This document shows positions 254 through 6,370 of a stretch of 6,398 nt of DNA, in pieces. The translations under genes were made by a program, and so were the position numbers. Every line of letters starts with the position of its first letter. Position 1 is the first letter of the stretch. The notes under the pieces are model-generated. The model saw nothing but the letters and a program-made list of their open reading frames with translations. It made no database searches and was not told the origin of the DNA. The DNA lies in the NCBI GenBank assembly GCA_003170935.1, contig PMYA01000076.1, positions 1 to 6,398 on the forward strand. Reading direction: 5' to 3'. The stretch comes from Methanobacteriota archaeon. GTDB taxonomy: Archaea > Halobacteriota > Bog-38 > Methanoflorentales > Methanoflorentaceae.

Positions 254-1468
254 TTAAACAATATTGCTGTAATTTTCGATATTCTTTCTGATTGTCGTTG
301 CCGATTCAACGGTGCAGTGCACCCCAATGATTTTTCCCGCCTCGACGAGAATCCCATGCCCAAAACGACAGTTCTCTCCAATTATAGCACCCAAGTTCAT
401 TACATGGTGGAGCTCTCCATCAAGAAACGGCATCGCAATCTTTGTTTGCTCGGTAATGAAATGCGAACCGATCATCGTGTTTTTACCTATAATTGAGTTT
501 GCGACAAGCGAATGAGAGCCCAACCGCACATCATTCATTATCAATGAGTTTCGCACTTCAGTAAATGAGTCAATCGTAACGCCGTTGCCAATGCTAGTTG
601 ACGGTAAAATGGTGACATTAGGTCCAATCTCAACATCTCTGCCCACAACTACCGGTCCAAGCACGTAAGATCCTGATCTTATAATTGAATTCTCTCCAAC
701 GATAACGCTGCCTCGCACTTTCGCATCATCTTCGATCTGGCCATTCTGCTGCGAGGATACATCTTTGACAGAGGATAGCACTGCAGCGTTTGCATTGAGT
801 AGATCCCACGGATAGCTCGCGTCGATCCACATCGATGTCGTATGAACCCCAGTAACATCGTAATGCTTGTCAATCATCCTCTGAATGGTGTCAGTGATCT
901 CGTATTCTCCTCTTGTGGATATCTTGGTGTAGGGAATTTCATTAAATACTGCAGGCTCAAAAACATAGATGCCTGTGTTAATATAATGGCTAATATCCGT
1001 GCCAGGTTTTTCGACTATTTGCGTTACGCGGGGCCCTTCCGTTGTAACGACTCCATAACCTTTGACGTTTTCTTTCACAGTTAACAGTAGCGTTACGTCG
1101 CCGGATGCATTACCCAGGACTTCTCCAATAGCCTCCGGACTGATTAAGTTATCACCGTTTAGAACTAAGAATTTTTCTTCGATTGAATCTTCAGCTAACT
1201 TAATAGCGTGGGCCGTTCCGAGCTGTTGTGGCTGCTCAACATATGTTATTTTTACGCCGAAGTTCTTCCCACCTTCGAAATAATTCATTACTTTTTCTTT
1301 CTTGTAGCCGACTACAAGACTTATTTCGGTAACACCGCTCCGAGCGAGAGAGTCAATCACATATTCAAGGATGGGACGGTTAGCTACAGGTACCATCGCT
1401 TTTGGCTGAGTTAAAGTAAATGGCCTTAAACGCGTTCCTTCGCCTGCAGCTAGGACAATAGCTTTCAC
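254..1468 (-). CDS. glmU: GlmU-like bifunctional sugar-1-phosphate nucleotidylyltransferase / acyltransferase
   Basis: This 404-residue cytoplasmic protein should join a sugar-1-phosphate to UTP or dTTP and acetylate an amino sugar-1-phosphate, giving UDP-GlcNAc or a related activated sugar. The N-terminal nucleotidyltransferase domain (about 1-230) shows LAAGEGTRLRPFT (6-18), the lysine of QPKAMVPV (K23), GTAHA (84-88), the metal-binding NGDN (D106), EKP (153-155), NTGIY (164-168) and WIDASYPWDLL (214-224), the last typical of archaeal GlmU enzymes. Hexapeptide repeats of a left-handed beta helix fill about 245-390. The frame stays open to 1684, but homology begins at the GTG at 1468, which has GAAGG six bases upstream; the extension would run through the divergent gene. 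Sulfolobus-type homologues accept several sugars, so the substrate cannot be fixed from sequence; a single-function dTDP-glucose synthase relative is the main alternative. Divergent from the BshC/PIG-L pair, for which it could supply UDP-GlcNAc. Confidence 0.88.
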   Translation of the reverse strand: MKAIVLAAGEGTRLRPFTLTQPKAMVPVANRPILEYVIDSLARSGVTEISLVVGYKKEKVMNYFEGGKNFGVKITYVEQPQQLGTAHAIKLAEDSIEEKFLVLNGDNLISPEAIGEVLGNASGDVTLLLTVKENVKGYGVVTTEGPRVTQIVEKPGTDISHYINTGIYVFEPAVFNEIPYTKISTRGEYEITDTIQRMIDKHYDVTGVHTTSMWIDASYPWDLLNANAAVLSSVKDVSSQQNGQIEDDAKVRGSVIVGENSIIRSGSYVLGPVVVGRDVEIGPNVTILPSTSIGNGVTIDSFTEVRNSLIMNDVRLGSHSLVANSIIGKNTMIGSHFITEQTKIAMPFLDGELHHVMNLGAIIGENCRFGHGILVEAGKIIGVHCTVESATTIRKNIENYSNIV

Positions 1469-1474
1469 TGTAAA

Positions 1475-1479
1475 CCTTC
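1475..1479 (-). promoter_or_regulatory. Ribosome binding site deciding the GTG start of the GlmU-like gene
   Basis: The minus strand reads GAAGG, then six bases, then GTG at 1468. This supports the GTG over the long upstream open extension. The GTG also places the residues AIVLAAGEG at the normal N-terminal position for the family. Confidence 0.6.
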
Positions 1480-1508
1480 GTATATCTATACGGAAAATAA
1501 CTATATAG
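1480..1508. promoter_or_regulatory. Divergent promoter region with two TATA-like palindromes
   Basis: The 121-base gap between the divergent genes contains two AT-rich palindromes: GTATA-TC-TATAC (1480-1491) and CTATATAG (1501-1508). The second lies about 36-40 bases before the GTG of the leftward gene, so that transcript would have a leader of about 10 bases that includes the GAAGG site. Read rightward, the same CTATATAG, preceded by AAAATAA, would start a transcript near 1530 with a leader of about 60 bases for the BshC-like gene. The first palindrome could be an alternative TATA box or a regulator site between promoter and start. Assignment is by motif and spacing only. Confidence 0.5.
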
Positions 1509-1589: not shown

Positions 1590-3206
1590 ATGAAAGGAGC
1601 GCAATGCAAGAACCTTGAAGAGCTTACGCGAGCTGTCGTTAACAATGCCATTTTCCCTGACAACAAAGTCTTGGACAAGCGCAAAGCGTTTGCAAAACAC
1701 GTCGAATCTTTTCACAACGATTCCCAAATCCCGCTCCGCATAGATTACGATGGGATCATTGTGATGACTGCCCACCAGCCAAATTTTTTTCCGTACAGTG
1801 GAGTTGTACGAAAGGCAGTATTGCTTCACGCTGTGGCAGAACGTGTTCGAGATAGGCTTAACTGTCCTGTAGCAGAGCTATTCTGCTTTGCTGACCAGGA
1901 CTTTGCCGATGAAAGATGGTTCCGAGAAGCGCAACTCCCGAGCGTTAGAAACAAAAACGGAACTCTTAGCCTGCATTTGCCTGTCGCTGACAGTTACAAC
2001 AACAAAATCCTCCGTGCTGTTCCTAAACCCGAAAATGACGAAATCGAAAAGATAAAAAATGAAATTCAGCAGTGGGCATCTGACTCACGACAATCAATTT
2101 TAAAAAGCTTGAAGCAATTGGGGTTAGAGGTCCCCGACGTTTGCTTCGACACTAGATCTCTCTTCGAACTAATTGATCGCGCGAGAGAGCGAAGCTCAAA
2201 CGCGACTGATTTTAACGCTCTTTTTTTAGCGTACCTCATCGAACAGTCAGGTTACAAAACTGCTTTTGCACGCTTTTCTGAATGTCAACAAGTGTTCAGT
2301 GATGAAATCGCCTTCATGTTAGAAAACGGCGGCCAATATGCAAGATTGATGGCTGAATCACAGAAGAAGCCGAGCTCAATTGCTCAAACTCCCATCTGGT
2401 ACCATTGCCCTTGCAACGGAAAAGCAGACGTCGAGGTAATGTCCGCTCACAACTATGCGCTCGTTACTAGGTGCCGTGCGTGTAACACAACCTCCGAGTT
2501 TAAAGGCAACTTACGCTCAGCGTTGCAGCAGATGTTGCCAAACGTGTCGCTGCGAGCAGAAGCTATGCTGATTGCTTTCAGCGGCATCGGCATTACATTC
2601 TATGTTGGAGGCATGGGAGGTACCGAATATCTCCGCAGAGCCGCAAAAATAGCTGAAGCCCTTGACGTTCGTTTTCCAATTGTCTCAACGTGGAGGCCTA
2701 AAGATGTTTACGCAGGCCTCGGCCAGTTGGATGCAATGCTAGAACTATTAAGGATTAAGGCTCGATACAATCTTTTTCAGGACGGCGAGAAGTGCGACGT
2801 CGCACTTCTGCAGCGCGAGTTGGATGGTATGTTAACGGAAATAGATGGGGGAGTCTGTGCGCTCGACAATCTCAAAAGTGCCGTTGCAAATAGGAAAGGT
2901 GATGGTTTTAAAGAGAAGATAGGTTTCATCGTCAACATGCAAACTCAGTTGAAGACGCAATTCGAACGGAATAAAATCGCAAGAGATCGTTCGATTGTGG
3001 CCAACACAAAAAAGACACTCAGTATTATTCCGTCTATCATCGATTATGAAGTCAATATCGGCGTGCATTCGACCTTCGCACAATGGTTGGCCGCACTGGA
3101 AAAAAATACGCATTTTGACGAGACGCTGCTGCTGAAGACCAATACTGCAATGGACGCATTGTTCGACATGACGAGACGATTATTCGTCGGTGATTTATTT
3201 GAATAA
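1590..3206 (+). CDS. BshC-family protein (putative cysteine-adding enzyme) with inserted cysteine-pair motif
   Basis: A 538-residue soluble protein, about the normal BshC length. BshC proteins are thought to add cysteine to glucosaminyl-malate in the last step of bacillithiol synthesis. Family-like features are a glycine/glutamine-type loop TAHQPNFFPYSG (60-71) where BshC has TGQQxGxxxGP, a helix with basic residues, then CPVAELFCFADQDFADERWF (92-111), matching the 'P-V-FW-DHDF-E' region. Later come LPNVSLR (316-322) and FYVGGMGGTEYLRRA (337-351), matching the 'sPNVlLRP...YVGGPGE..Y' region. A charged, helical C-terminal part (about 380-475) fits the family coiled coil. Unusual is a C273-P-C275 ... 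C295-RA-C298 pair of cysteine motifs, a likely zinc site not typical of bacterial BshC as I know it. The first 55 residues are also poorly conserved-looking. The N-terminal motif faintly recalls WbqC proteins. Overlaps the PIG-L deacetylase gene by 8 bases, so the two are almost certainly co-translated. Confidence 0.72.
   Translation: MKGAQCKNLEELTRAVVNNAIFPDNKVLDKRKAFAKHVESFHNDSQIPLRIDYDGIIVMTAHQPNFFPYSGVVRKAVLLHAVAERVRDRLNCPVAELFCFADQDFADERWFREAQLPSVRNKNGTLSLHLPVADSYNNKILRAVPKPENDEIEKIKNEIQQWASDSRQSILKSLKQLGLEVPDVCFDTRSLFELIDRARERSSNATDFNALFLAYLIEQSGYKTAFARFSECQQVFSDEIAFMLENGGQYARLMAESQKKPSSIAQTPIWYHCPCNGKADVEVMSAHNYALVTRCRACNTTSEFKGNLRSALQQMLPNVSLRAEAMLIAFSGIGITFYVGGMGGTEYLRRAAKIAEALDVRFPIVSTWRPKDVYAGLGQLDAMLELLRIKARYNLFQDGEKCDVALLQRELDGMLTEIDGGVCALDNLKSAVANRKGDGFKEKIGFIVNMQTQLKTQFERNKIARDRSIVANTKKTLSIIPSIIDYEVNIGVHSTFAQWLAALEKNTHFDETLLLKTNTAMDALFDMTRRLFVGDLFE
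3189..3194 (+). promoter_or_regulatory. GGTGAT ribosome binding site deciding a TTG start
   Basis: GGTGAT is a perfect match to the archaeal Shine-Dalgarno sequence. It lies inside the end of the BshC-like gene and ends four bases before TTG 3199. The competing GTG start at 3190 lies within this site and has no ribosome binding site of its own. Confidence 0.6.
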
Positions 3207-3822
3207 AGTAGTGTTAGCGATCGGAGCTCATCCTGATGATTGTGAAATAGGTTGCTATGCCACGTTAGCCCATCATAAAAACACCGGGGACTCAGTTCAC
3301 CTGCTCGTTCTCTCAAAAGGCGAGGCAGGGGGGCCAAGCGAAAAAAGAGTCTCAGAGAGCAAAGAAGCGGCCCAGCTTCTTGGTGCGGATAGCATCACGA
3401 TCGGGGACCTCAGAGATCGGATGATCACGACTGACTATCGGACGATCGAGCTTATTCAGGCAAAGTTAGAGGAATTAAAGCCCGACCGGATATACACTCA
3501 TAGCCCGCACGACAATCATCAAGACCATCGAAACGCTGCGCTAGCAACAATGACGCTTTATCGACACGTTGACGATATATTTCTTTATGAATCCCCAAGC
3601 GTGTCGCTTGAGTTTACTCCGCGAGTTTTTGTCAATATAACTAACTTCTTCCATGTTAAAATCGCGGCTTTAAAACTCCACGAAACGCAGAATGACAAAT
3701 ACTATGTTAGGACAGAAGCGATTGCCGGTCTTGCTCAGTATCGCGCTTTTCAGGCCGGGATGCTAGTTACGCATAATCACAGCAAAGCCGAAGCTTTCGA
3801 TTTAGCAAAATTAACTTTATAA
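3199..3822 (+). CDS. PIG-L/LmbE-family zinc-dependent N-deacetylase (BshB-like)
   Basis: This 207-residue cytoplasmic enzyme should remove the acetyl group from an N-acetylglucosamine conjugate. With TTG 3199 as start it begins MNKVVLAIGAHPDDCEIG. The AHPDD motif (10-14) gives zinc ligand H11, metal ligand D14 and the general base D13. HSPHDNHQDHRNA (101-113) supplies the third zinc ligand, H110. KGEAGG (40-45), the R-ESKEAAQLLG helix (50-62) and the 'KIAAL-LHETQ' segment (154-164) are also family features. It is a little shorter than most BshB/MshB proteins but complete. GTG 3190 is an alternative start adding three residues. The 8-base overlap with the BshC-like gene mirrors the functional pairing of BshB and BshC in bacillithiol synthesis. 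A GlcNAc-lipid or surface-glycan substrate is the alternative. Fold and catalysis are secure; substrate is not. Confidence 0.9.
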   Translation: MNKVVLAIGAHPDDCEIGCYATLAHHKNTGDSVHLLVLSKGEAGGPSEKRVSESKEAAQLLGADSITIGDLRDRMITTDYRTIELIQAKLEELKPDRIYTHSPHDNHQDHRNAALATMTLYRHVDDIFLYESPSVSLEFTPRVFVNITNFFHVKIAALKLHETQNDKYYVRTEAIAGLAQYRAFQAGMLVTHNHSKAEAFDLAKLTL

Positions 3823-3851: not shown

Positions 3852-4190
3852 CTAAGCACCTTGTCGAGGTTTATCTACCTTACGCCTGTCTTTGACCGCC
3901 AAGCTCGCTGCTCGTAAAGGCCATATAATTAAGAAAAAGATGGTTACGATGGTAAGAACCGCCAGCAGGCTGACAGCGGTGATTCCGCCTGTGAGACTTA
4001 TGAGCGATTGAGAATAGCCCATGAGAAGCCCAATCGTAACTAAGATTGTAATGCTTAGTCCGATAGATATTGCAAGCCGCTCGGTCACTTCTAGTTGATT
4101 CAATCTTGGAAAAAATGCGAGCGACATGGCGAACCCCGGAACGACAAGGACAGCAATAAAGGCAAGGGCAATTTGTATGATGCTCGACAT
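3852..4190 (-). CDS. Small DUF1616-like membrane protein
   Basis: A 112-residue protein with three hydrophobic segments at about 4-27, 39-59 and 64-91, and a short basic tail, KDRRKVDKPRQ (100-110). The stretch with VPGFAMSLAFFPR followed by L-ERLAISIGLSI resembles the N-terminal part of DUF1616 membrane proteins ('lPGyal..alFPr...l...ERlalsfGLSl'). Those are found in archaea and are usually longer, with more membrane helices and a soluble domain. This copy is either a short stand-alone version or a truncated one; the basic, proline-containing end looks like a natural terminus. It has its own TATA box and probably a leaderless start. Function unknown; by location it might act with the sugar-nucleotide genes at the membrane. 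The basic tail after the third helix suggests a cytoplasmic C-terminus. Confidence 0.72.
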   Translation of the reverse strand: MSSIIQIALAFIAVLVVPGFAMSLAFFPRLNQLEVTERLAISIGLSITILVTIGLLMGYSQSLISLTGGITAVSLLAVLTIVTIFFLIIWPLRAASLAVKDRRKVDKPRQGA

Positions 4191-4307: not shown

Positions 4308-5219
4308 CTAGCTCATAAAACGACTTAACTTTTCAAGACCGTCAGCGATTTTGGTTTCTGGCTCATAGTTTATGAGCTTCTTTGCTAAGCTAATGTCTGC
4401 CAGAGATCGCCTCCCATCGCCAACCCGTGGCGTCACATGTTCGATACGTACATTTGAGGGAACCATCTCTTTTATTTTTATTGCTAGGTCGTTGATGGAC
4501 GTCTCTACTCCACTTCCGATGTTAATAGCAGCACCTGAAGCTTTACTTTTTGCAGCTAGTAGATTTGCCCTAACTATGTCCTTTACGTAAACGAAATCGC
4601 GAGTCTGCTTCCCATCCCCAAATATCTCAATTTTGGCATTTGATCTCGCGTCGTAGAAAAACTTGCTTATCACACCAGAGTATGCGTTTTCGGGTCGCTG
4701 ATATGGCCCATAGACATTAAAATAACGCAACGAAATCGTGTCTATGCCGTACAAGCTGTGATAAGCGGCCAGATACAGCTCGCCGGAATACTTACTAGCT
4801 GCGTATTGCGAGATGGGCCGGATCGGTTGCATCTCGTCAATAGGAAAAACATCTGCATTTCCATACACGGCAGCGCTTGATGAATAGATTATCTTAGATA
4901 CATCATTCTTCCGAGCAGCTTCACACACCGAGAGAGTCCCTAATATATTGTTTCCCAAATCGACAAATGGCTCTCGCGTGCTTGCAACAACATCTACGCG
5001 CGCAGCAGTATGGAAGACTATATCAACGTCTCTAAGTGCCTTAAAAGTCGTTTCAGCATCCCTAATGTCACCTTCAATAAGATGAACATTAGGCAATCGA
5101 ACCACTCGCGCTACGTTGCTGAGGTTGTCTAAAATCCGTACTTCTGAGAACTCGTTTGAAAGCAATTCAGCAAGTTGATTGCCAATAAATCCGTATCCAC
5201 CTGTAACTAGTCCAATCAT
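4308..5219 (-). CDS. NAD-dependent sugar-nucleotide epimerase/dehydratase (GalE-like extended SDR)
   Basis: A complete 303-residue extended short-chain dehydrogenase, expected to act on a UDP- or similar nucleotide sugar in the cytoplasm, most likely as a 4-epimerase. It shows the NAD-binding TGGYGFIG (6-13), the acidic residue after beta-2 in ILDNLS (29-34), GDIRD (50-54), HTAARVDV (70-77), the catalytic serine region SSSAAVYG (113-120), YAASK (Y139, K143), RYFNVYGP (165-172) and GDGKQTRDFVYVKD (201-214). These are shared by UDP-glucose/UDP-GlcNAc 4-epimerases and close relatives such as UDP-glucuronate epimerases or decarboxylases, so the exact sugar is not certain. The ATG fits the Rossmann motif, but no ribosome binding site is well placed: GTGAT touches the ATG directly. 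The gene follows the radical SAM gene by 35 bases in the same direction. Confidence 0.9.
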   Translation of the reverse strand: MIGLVTGGYGFIGNQLAELLSNEFSEVRILDNLSNVARVVRLPNVHLIEGDIRDAETTFKALRDVDIVFHTAARVDVVASTREPFVDLGNNILGTLSVCEAARKNDVSKIIYSSSAAVYGNADVFPIDEMQPIRPISQYAASKYSGELYLAAYHSLYGIDTISLRYFNVYGPYQRPENAYSGVISKFFYDARSNAKIEIFGDGKQTRDFVYVKDIVRANLLAAKSKASGAAINIGSGVETSINDLAIKIKEMVPSNVRIEHVTPRVGDGRRSLADISLAKKLINYEPETKIADGLEKLSRFMS

Positions 5220-5254: not shown

Positions 5255-6370
5255 CTAATATTTAAAAGCATCGTAAAGCTCAAAGTGGCTTTCTTTACGA
5301 TAGCTCCGCTTAGTTTTGGTCTGTCGAAGGGTCCCCCATTTATAGGGATACTCGAACGCAAGCTTTCTGTTTTGACACAACGGTGCAGCTTTGTCTGGGC
5401 ATGCAGTTAGGCAGTCACCGTTACAAATTGGCGTGAAACGCCCGCTCTCGTCCCTCATAGTTAATTTACCGAGCGTTGTGCATTGCGTTGGCCGGAATAG
5501 GGCAGGATCATACTGCTCCAAACATATTGACAGGGTCATTTCGTACTTCCCACAAAGTGACTCAACTTGCCTATATAGTTTTAACCGATCAACAAAACTA
5601 AGTGAGTGGTTCCCTTCTTTAAGCGTATAGTTAGCTCGTATTTCAGCCACCAAATCTGAGAATGAACTATTCTCTATTCTAGAGGTTAGTCTGTTAAAAA
5701 CCCTCGCGTTGAAAGTGCCCGTCGATATAGTAACATTCTTAATTCCTATCGAACTTAGCCTCTCAAAAAGCTCGGTCAGTTCTTCGTGATCGTCTGTAAA
5801 CCCACAAATGATCGGATCGACTCTTGCCACTACATCGACGCCTGCGTTTAAGAGCTGTTCGATCGCTCTAAACCTTCTGAAAGCGGAGGGTGCCTTGCTT
5901 AGCACGCGCAATTTTTTCTCATTAATGCTTTCACACGTAAGCGAAACGCGAAGTCGTTTGTAGTCGAACCAATTGGTATCAAGGATTTTAAGCACGAGAT
6001 CCGACTTGGTAACGATAGTGAAGTAGACATTGTGTTCAACAGCAACGTTCATGGAGCGTAGTGCGGTGTTATACACGAGGTCAAGTGGTTGGAAAGGGTC
6101 CGTGACTGCGCAAAAATAGAGCGGGGGACAGATCGCTAGGCTACTTAGCTCCGCTTCAAGCAATTCCGGCGTGTTTTCATAGACTTCAATTGAGCGCCCA
6201 GGACGAGACCATGGGTAACCCTTGGCGTAGCAATAAACGCAGTCAAAAATACAATCTCCGCTTTTCGTCAGGTTCACAATTGCTGCATGCGGACATCTCC
6301 TATGATTAGCACGATATGGGAAATCATGGATAAGTCTGCTGCGTCGCTCTATTGGAACCGCTTTAAACAT
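5255..6370 (-). CDS. Radical SAM protein, SplB-like (COG1533 type), with cysteine-rich C-terminus
   Basis: A 371-residue cytoplasmic iron-sulfur enzyme. C40-IFD-C44-VY-C47 in GDCIFDCVYCYAKGYP is the classic CxxxCxxC motif that binds the [4Fe-4S] cluster which cleaves S-adenosylmethionine. TDPFQP (90-95), FTIVTKSDLVL (117-127), SLTCESINEKKLRVLSKAP (143-161) and the VDPIICGFTDD region (184-194) follow the pattern of the group often labelled 'DNA repair photolyase' (SplB-like). That label is by similarity; nothing here proves lesion repair. After the radical SAM core come C273, C283, C297, C316, C320, C324 and C332, including CNGDCLTAC, which could hold one or two extra iron-sulfur clusters. Start ATG 6370 has only a weak site (AAAGG) and the frame is open to the window edge, so a further upstream start cannot be excluded. 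No functional tie to the neighbours is visible. Confidence 0.83.
   Translation of the reverse strand: MFKAVPIERRSRLIHDFPYRANHRRCPHAAIVNLTKSGDCIFDCVYCYAKGYPWSRPGRSIEVYENTPELLEAELSSLAICPPLYFCAVTDPFQPLDLVYNTALRSMNVAVEHNVYFTIVTKSDLVLKILDTNWFDYKRLRVSLTCESINEKKLRVLSKAPSAFRRFRAIEQLLNAGVDVVARVDPIICGFTDDHEELTELFERLSSIGIKNVTISTGTFNARVFNRLTSRIENSSFSDLVAEIRANYTLKEGNHSLSFVDRLKLYRQVESLCGKYEMTLSICLEQYDPALFRPTQCTTLGKLTMRDESGRFTPICNGDCLTACPDKAAPLCQNRKLAFEYPYKWGTLRQTKTKRSYRKESHFELYDAFKY
5257..5269 (-). promoter_or_regulatory. Possible TATA box of the epimerase gene inside the preceding gene's end
   Basis: The minus strand reads CTTTTAAATATTA, centred about 44 bases before the epimerase ATG. That would give a transcript starting near 5237 with a leader of about 18 bases. 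The same bases encode the last residues of the radical SAM protein (AFKY), so the AT-rich match could be incidental. Transcription together with the upstream gene is equally possible. Confidence 0.35.

Follow-up and report, generated by a model that had tools for sequence, protein, structure and literature searches.

A conserved archaeal gene pair for a BshC-like protein and a PIG-L deacetylase, with a possible role in aminoacylation of an amino sugar

We analysed a stretch of 6398 bases from a Methanobacteriota archaeon (contig PMYA01000076.1), hereafter the window, which is an entire contig (C41) of a 1.79 Mb assembly that is 77% complete. It contains a gene for a BshC-like protein and, on the same strand, a gene for a PIG-L family deacetylase. 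This gene pair is real and conserved in archaea, and the BshC-like protein is related to BshC by fold but is a variant by sequence and context. We propose that the two proteins act in sequence on one amino sugar, which is probably nucleotide- or lipid-linked and surface-bound, where PIG-L would deacetylate the sugar and the BshC-like protein would add an amino acid. We consider this proposal somewhat more apt to be right than wrong, and a role in making an aminoacyl sugar is more likely than the role in a low-molecular-weight thiol put forward in a first-pass annotation.

The two genes are paired across archaea

The window PIG-L protein scored 92.1 bits against PF02585 (positions 3199-3822; cut-off 28.2) and harbours the metal-site motifs HPDD and HQDH, in agreement with its earlier identification. 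A profile of the BshC-like family was searched in 392 genomes of the window's phylum, 28 of which matched. Going by the names of close relatives, we take this phylum to be Halobacteriota. Two of these (G106 and G192) contained only weak fragments with stops, leaving 26 carriers. Thirty-one loci were fetched and four were dropped (L061 lies at a contig end, L062 and L082 are fragments and L083 lacks the gene). In 24 of the 27 resolvable loci a PIG-L gene overlapped the BshC-like gene or was located at most 29 bases away on the same strand.

A second sample was drawn from the phylum to which L009, a genome labelled Bathyarchaeota, belongs; we take this phylum to be Thermoproteota. Here seven of 300 genomes matched, two of them weakly, and an adjacent PIG-L gene was found in four of the five full loci; two of these five genomes also underlie L009 and L012. 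Among 40 loci selected by motif, which share organisms with the first sample, 31 had an adjacent PIG-L gene (30 directly, plus L040 from Methanogenium cariaci, in which the BshC-like frame seems to be split). In L017 and L021 the PIG-L gene was 2.1 and 3.1 kb away, and L006 is at a contig end. In the two profile-based samples the pairing is far more frequent than chance would give if a genome has one or two PIG-L genes, and the BshC-like gene is usually accompanied by PIG-L rather than widespread without it.

Within the window's phylum, adjacent loci have the BshC-like gene first and PIG-L second. The reverse order was found in the Bathyarchaeota, Nanohalarchaeota and Methanomethylicus loci and in L032, which indicates that the association outlasts a change of gene order. 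The BshC-like gene was present in 7/7 genomes of the window's family examined, all of one genus, and the relatives that bear names are archaea, as had been supposed for the host. Second copies occur in this genus in L054 (G005:C6), with no PIG-L gene adjoining, and in L061 (G003:C83).

The BshC-like protein has a BshC fold and a synthetase-like core

The predicted structure of the window protein shows the BshC fold over its full length, with 12% identity in the structural alignment with BshC (PDB 4wbd). No Pfam or NCBIfam model matched the protein at E <= 1. PF10079 (BshC) gave no match when searched with the product of 1590-3206 and zero matches in the window's genome, and a profile-based assignment of the protein to BshC was therefore rejected. 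The BshC label given earlier thus stands at the superfamily level, by predicted fold and distant homology, but not at the level of the profile. Many relatives with 31-35% identity to the window protein carry a precomputed PF10079 assignment. When five relatives were scanned, L009 (29.9 bits) and L017 (40.5 bits) exceeded the cut-off of 27 and nothing was found in L011, L022 and L018. A search of the PDB with the single window sequence returned 0 matches, whereas the family alignment retrieved BshC, but only at E 0.023.

Profile comparison with HHalign aligned the family with BshC over residues 43-366 (E 5e-4, probability 32%), placing TAHQPN (residues 60-65 of the window protein) on TGQQ.G and YVGGMGG on YVGGPGE. 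Other landmarks are ADQD (residues 101-104) and a helical C-terminal part from about residue 404. It had been noticed before that HQPNFF stands in place of the TGQQ loop of BshC. The loop indeed differs, but it is TAHQ that aligns with TGQQ, and the Thr and the final Gln are shared.

The predicted model also shows the catalytic-core fold of the class I aminoacyl-tRNA synthetase superfamily. Its core superposes on class I lysyl-tRNA synthetase (LysRS-I; PDB 1irx) with 3.0 A over 297 residues, and HHalign gave a local alignment (E 3e-4, probability 39%) that covers residues 162-293 and runs as far as the cysteine ribbon described below. These two profile alignments support the fold result and do not carry it. 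The C-terminal part of the protein, in contrast, does not align with the remainder of LysRS, and the window protein has no match to PF01921 (class I LysRS). The place of HIGN in LysRS-I is taken by YSGV, in a part of the alignment that has low confidence. Direct comparison of the BshC and LysRS-I profiles gave no useful match. A residue map of the amino-acid pocket onto LysRS-I was discarded because the alignment is unreliable beyond residues 162-293, and for this reason we name no amino acid. The reading of the protein as a lysyl-tRNA synthetase was rejected, since the genome has a separate LysRS (G000:C87).

Seventeen columns are invariant over 82 divergent family members, including His62, Gln63, Asn65, Tyr374, Asp485 and four cysteines (273, 275, 295 and 298; WYHCxC...CxxC), which are predicted to form a zinc ribbon. 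Twenty locus rows of this alignment came from a search that had the Cys motif among its patterns, while its P rows are independent of the motif. The motif was also found in 32/32 loci from the whole-genome profile search, whose profile was itself built from alignment A2. For comparison, BshC sequences were collected with the BshC of another genome as query; a length filter removed one of the 120 listed, and the other 119 were aligned. Among these listed matches the Cys motif occurred in 0/119, and no column of the aligned region contained more than 14 Cys. The extra invariant CxC..CxxC thus sets the window protein apart from BshC.

Proposed function and known parallels

In the proposed mechanism, PIG-L would first strip an amino sugar of its N-acetyl group, and the BshC-like protein would then couple an amino acid, not necessarily cysteine, to the freed amine. 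The LysRS-like core suggests that the amino acid would be activated with ATP to an aminoacyl-adenylate, as in LysRS and MshC. The sugar would be nucleotide- or lipid-linked and destined for the cell surface. MshC, the CysRS-like cysteine ligase of mycothiol synthesis (PDB 3c8z), acts after the PIG-L deacetylase MshB and is likewise a class I synthetase-like ligase paired with a PIG-L protein. The pair fits the logic of BshB/BshC and MshB/MshC, in which, according to passages of two reviews, a deacetylase frees the glucosamine amine and a ligase acylates it with cysteine (PMC4360819, PMC7278568).

For an aminoacylated surface sugar, the nearest working precedent is the linking sugar of the type IX system. 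A section of PMC7468200 proposes that VimE removes the C2 acetyl group and VimA adds Ser or Gly, describes the sugar as amide-bonded to the cargo C-terminus, and speculates that exosortase partners employ a similar compound. The proposed order of deacetylation and amino-acid addition is the same as that suggested here, but the families differ from PIG-L and BshC: VimE is a CE4 deacetylase and VimA is N-acetyltransferase/FemAB-like. A VimE-like protein and FemAB genes do occur in several archaeal clusters (see below). A BshC relative with a LysRS-like Cys ribbon also offers a testable route for the catalytic mechanism of BshC itself, namely amino-acid adenylation. We found no open-licence PMC paper connecting any two of BshC, PIG-L and lysyl-tRNA synthetase. 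In the open-licence PMC literature on archaeosortase, DUF1616, PEF-CTERM and the linking sugar, no title or abstract among the matches listed describes the pair.

The pair is found among glycan-type genes

DUF1616 directly adjoins the pair or the BshC-like gene in 14/27 loci of the window's phylum. Other recurrent neighbours in archaeal loci are nucleotide-sugar genes, WecA/MraY-like Glycos_transf_4, DUF354, VanZ, FemAB (PF02388 over cut-off in L021), an AMP-ligase-like protein and an Exosortase_EpsH protein. A protein matching VimE (109.8 bits, cut-off 440) is encoded in L020. L011, L013, L014 and L015 share one gene arrangement, with UDP-sugar dehydrogenase followed by GT2, epimerase, PIG-L and finally the BshC-like gene, and L022 and L024 contain Glycos_transf_4, DUF354, FemAB and hexapeptide-transferase genes. 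These neighbours suggest that the sugar is surface- or lipid-linked rather than part of a soluble thiol.

Some further observations were made in these clusters. L024 is a contig labelled Deltaproteobacteria with an archaeal-type cluster (GT4, DUF1616, BshC-like, PIG-L, DUF354, a VimE-cluster protein and FemAB). It also encodes an archaeosortase and reflects either transfer or mis-binning. Small proteins of cluster C21 (L040 2231-2647, L031 7965-8378 and others) may be one part of a split DUF1616: the L040 protein has a weak match (16.6 bits, cut-off 31.6) to the second half of DUF1616, and the protein adjoining the pair matches the first half. A protein cluster first labelled flippase had no Pfam match, and the label was dropped.

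A sister subtype is linked to a diverged archaeosortase

TIGR03762 (archaeosortase C) was searched in the same 392 genomes as the BshC-like profile and exceeded its cut-off in 52. The scores comprised 38 classic (239.5 to 446 bits) and 13 diverged ones (108-161 bits), a split chosen after the scores were known; G286, which passes solely as pieces in neighbouring frames, was counted as classic, giving 39. In 11 of the 13 diverged genomes a full or near-full BshC-like gene was located on the same contig at 0.7-4.4 kb (between profile matches), and in nine of these 11 PIG-L was adjacent as well (not in G362 and G252). The remaining two had a broken BshC-like remnant only (G192) or none (G257). 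In the classic group, one of 39 genomes (G132) has a BshC-like gene, on a different contig. The diverged archaeosortase was thus present in 11/26 carriers compared to 2/366 others (Fisher p 8e-13, with the split post hoc and phylogeny ignored). Any TIGR03762 match at E <= 0.001 was found in 20/26 carriers compared to 75/366 non-carriers. PF09721 was over cut-off in 22/26 scanned genomes behind the 40 loci, a count with no baseline set beside it. In the broken locus of G192 (L082, C31) the remnant is beside DUF354 and VimE-cluster genes, and the diverged archaeosortase is on another contig.

The ligases linked to archaeosortase belong to a sister subtype, in which the loops are altered (mostly ESGHQPN, FISGxGG and DYYLG) and the invariant residues are retained, whereas the window's subtype has TAHQPN, ADQD, YVGG and WRPxD. 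Their clusters resemble those of archaeosortase C in that the neighbouring proteins exceed the model cut-off, but score well under the classic range. Since some relatives have an archaeosortase gene close to the pair, the pair may produce the sugar that surface proteins are attached to. For the sister subtype, a role in providing the archaeosortase acceptor is a lead; for the window's pair it is no more than an extrapolation. No physical link between archaeosortase and pair was found in the window's genus: in G001 and G002 about 77 kb separate the pair from the archaeosortase, which belongs to a separate locus with GT4-like and deacetylase-like genes (the latter with PF01522 over cut-off in G002), and in the window's genome it is encoded outside the window, on another contig. 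A link of the window's own pair to archaeosortase was therefore rejected. Near the G002 archaeosortase, a NosD/beta-helix protein (PF05048; L150 7319-8581, G002:C9) has a tail that matches no model and that we take to be PGF-CTERM-like.

Proteins with C-termini that are presumably PEF-CTERM-like, found with a home-made tail pattern, are encoded in clusters L021, L022, L025 and L031. Nine proteins, seven with right-shaped tails from these loci or relatives, were compared with the NCBIfam sorting-signal models and none was over cut-off. The nine included five of the proteins picked out by the tail pattern and a further one from L031. This lowers the odds of a more specific reading, which we regard as unlikely: that PIG-L and a zinc-ribbon ligase make an aminoacyl sugar that offers its free amine as acceptor to the distinct archaeosortase subtype, the ligase lineage being near the LysRS-I/BshC split. 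If true, an aminoacyl sugar would serve some archaea as the anchor for surface proteins sorted by their C-terminus, and the ligase would illustrate a tRNA synthetase core turning into a sugar ligase. Such anchoring would add a third solution to two others, the type IX Wbp/Vim linking sugar and archaetidylethanolamine, the latter proposed in a passage of PMC7157517 as the nucleophile for haloarchaeal ArtA. If the context is read correctly, the partner to which some archaeosortases join their substrates becomes testable.

Alternative explanations

The strongest alternative shares the chemistry of our proposal and differs in end use alone: the pair would decorate bulk exopolysaccharide or N-glycan with N-aminoacyl hexosamine and have no protein-anchoring role. 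The polysaccharide-type clusters L011, L013, L014 and L015, with UDP-sugar dehydrogenase, GT2 and epimerase before PIG-L, as well as L022 and L024, are in line with this. On its own, however, it leaves unexplained why the BshC-like gene is so closely associated with a single archaeosortase subtype in 11 genomes, and we consider it a possibility at rather less than even chances.

A bacillithiol-type pathway, in which the pair would complete a cysteinyl-glucosamine thiol and some GT4 of the genome would be an unrecognised BshA, is improbable. In its favour, the closest characterised relatives of the pair include BshB and BshC, the window's genome contains 28 matches to the BshA model that are under its cut-off, and a passage of a review reports 39 archaeal matches each for BshA and BshC, mostly in Asgard (PMC7278568). 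However, in this genome search for BshA-like glycosyltransferases with TIGR03999 none of the 28 matches was over cut-off (best 105.2 vs 273.7 bits; window genome only, at its 77% completeness, relatives not being searched), and no BshA partner could be assigned. The window PIG-L was also under the cut-offs of the BshB models (86.7 vs 182.5 bits for TIGR04001, BshB1, and 33.5 vs 195.25 bits for TIGR04000). In addition, the recurrent neighbours of the pair are surface-glycan genes (nucleotide-sugar, Glycos_transf_4, DUF1616, VanZ and archaeosortase genes), and a RefSeq survey reports, in one of its sections, the whole bacillithiol pathway in no archaeon (PMC12719100). The thiol suggested in the first-pass annotation is therefore not supported, whereas its suspicion that donor, acceptor or added group departs from that of bacillithiol is. 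An archaeal BshC-like and PIG-L pair alone is insufficient ground for annotating bacillithiol synthesis.

It is also improbable that the BshC-like protein serves PIG-L as a scaffold or in some other partnership and forms no amide bond. In favour of this reading, HIGH and KMSKS are not seen and any activity of the family members is a prediction here, but 17 invariant columns in such divergent members suggest an active enzyme.

Several observations weigh against sequential deacetylation and aminoacylation by the pair. Neither the HIGH nor the KMSKS signature of class I synthetases can be seen in the BshC-like protein, so that its adenylation activity is something we infer. Taken alone, the sequence links to BshC and LysRS-I (32% and 39%) are weak. 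The ligase activity of BshC was itself unproven in vitro according to a statement in a 2015 review (PMC4360819). An adjacent PIG-L gene is lacking in three of the 27 loci of the first sample (L054 in G005, which has another copy, L060, with PIG-L adjacent; L069 in G362; L073 in G252) and in 6/40 motif-selected loci (L008, L018, L019, L028, L033 and L036). In the fifth full locus of the second sample (L125), PIG-L is 1.1 kb off on the opposite strand, past an ATP-grasp-like gene. Finally, the window's own glycan-type neighbours are the GlmU-like gene and the epimerase only.

Genes of the window

Table 1. Positions and features of the genes encoded in the window.
Gene product	Position	Strand	Features
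BshC-like / class I LysRS-like protein, 538 aa	1590..3206	+	ATG 1590, stop 3206
PIG-L family deacetylase	3199..3822	+	PF02585 match; HPDD and HQDH motifs
GlmU-like bifunctional sugar-1-phosphate nucleotidylyltransferase/acetyltransferase	254..1498	-	TIGR03992 over cut-off; divergent from the pair
Short DUF1616 (PF07760) membrane protein	3852..4190	-	Family adjoins the pair in many other archaea
NAD-dependent epimerase/dehydratase	4308..5219	-	PF01370; LegB/GalE/TviC-like, under those equivalog cut-offs
Radical SAM protein	5255-6370	-	PF04055, 38.8 bits

Both reading frames of the pair were confirmed at the positions assigned earlier, and close relatives use the same Met as start of the BshC-like frame. 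The overlap of 8 bases reported for the two genes holds if PIG-L starts at TTG 3199, but not if it starts at GTG 3190 (17 bases) or GTG 3211 (0 bases). A second PIG-L gene of the same genome is located at G000:C29:4022-4366. The GlmU-like neighbour is kept in loci L001-L005 and L007 and the epimerase in L001-L004. The radical SAM gene adjoins the epimerase in L001-L004 as well, and its product has faint similarity to the PA0069-family and spore photoproduct lyase models.
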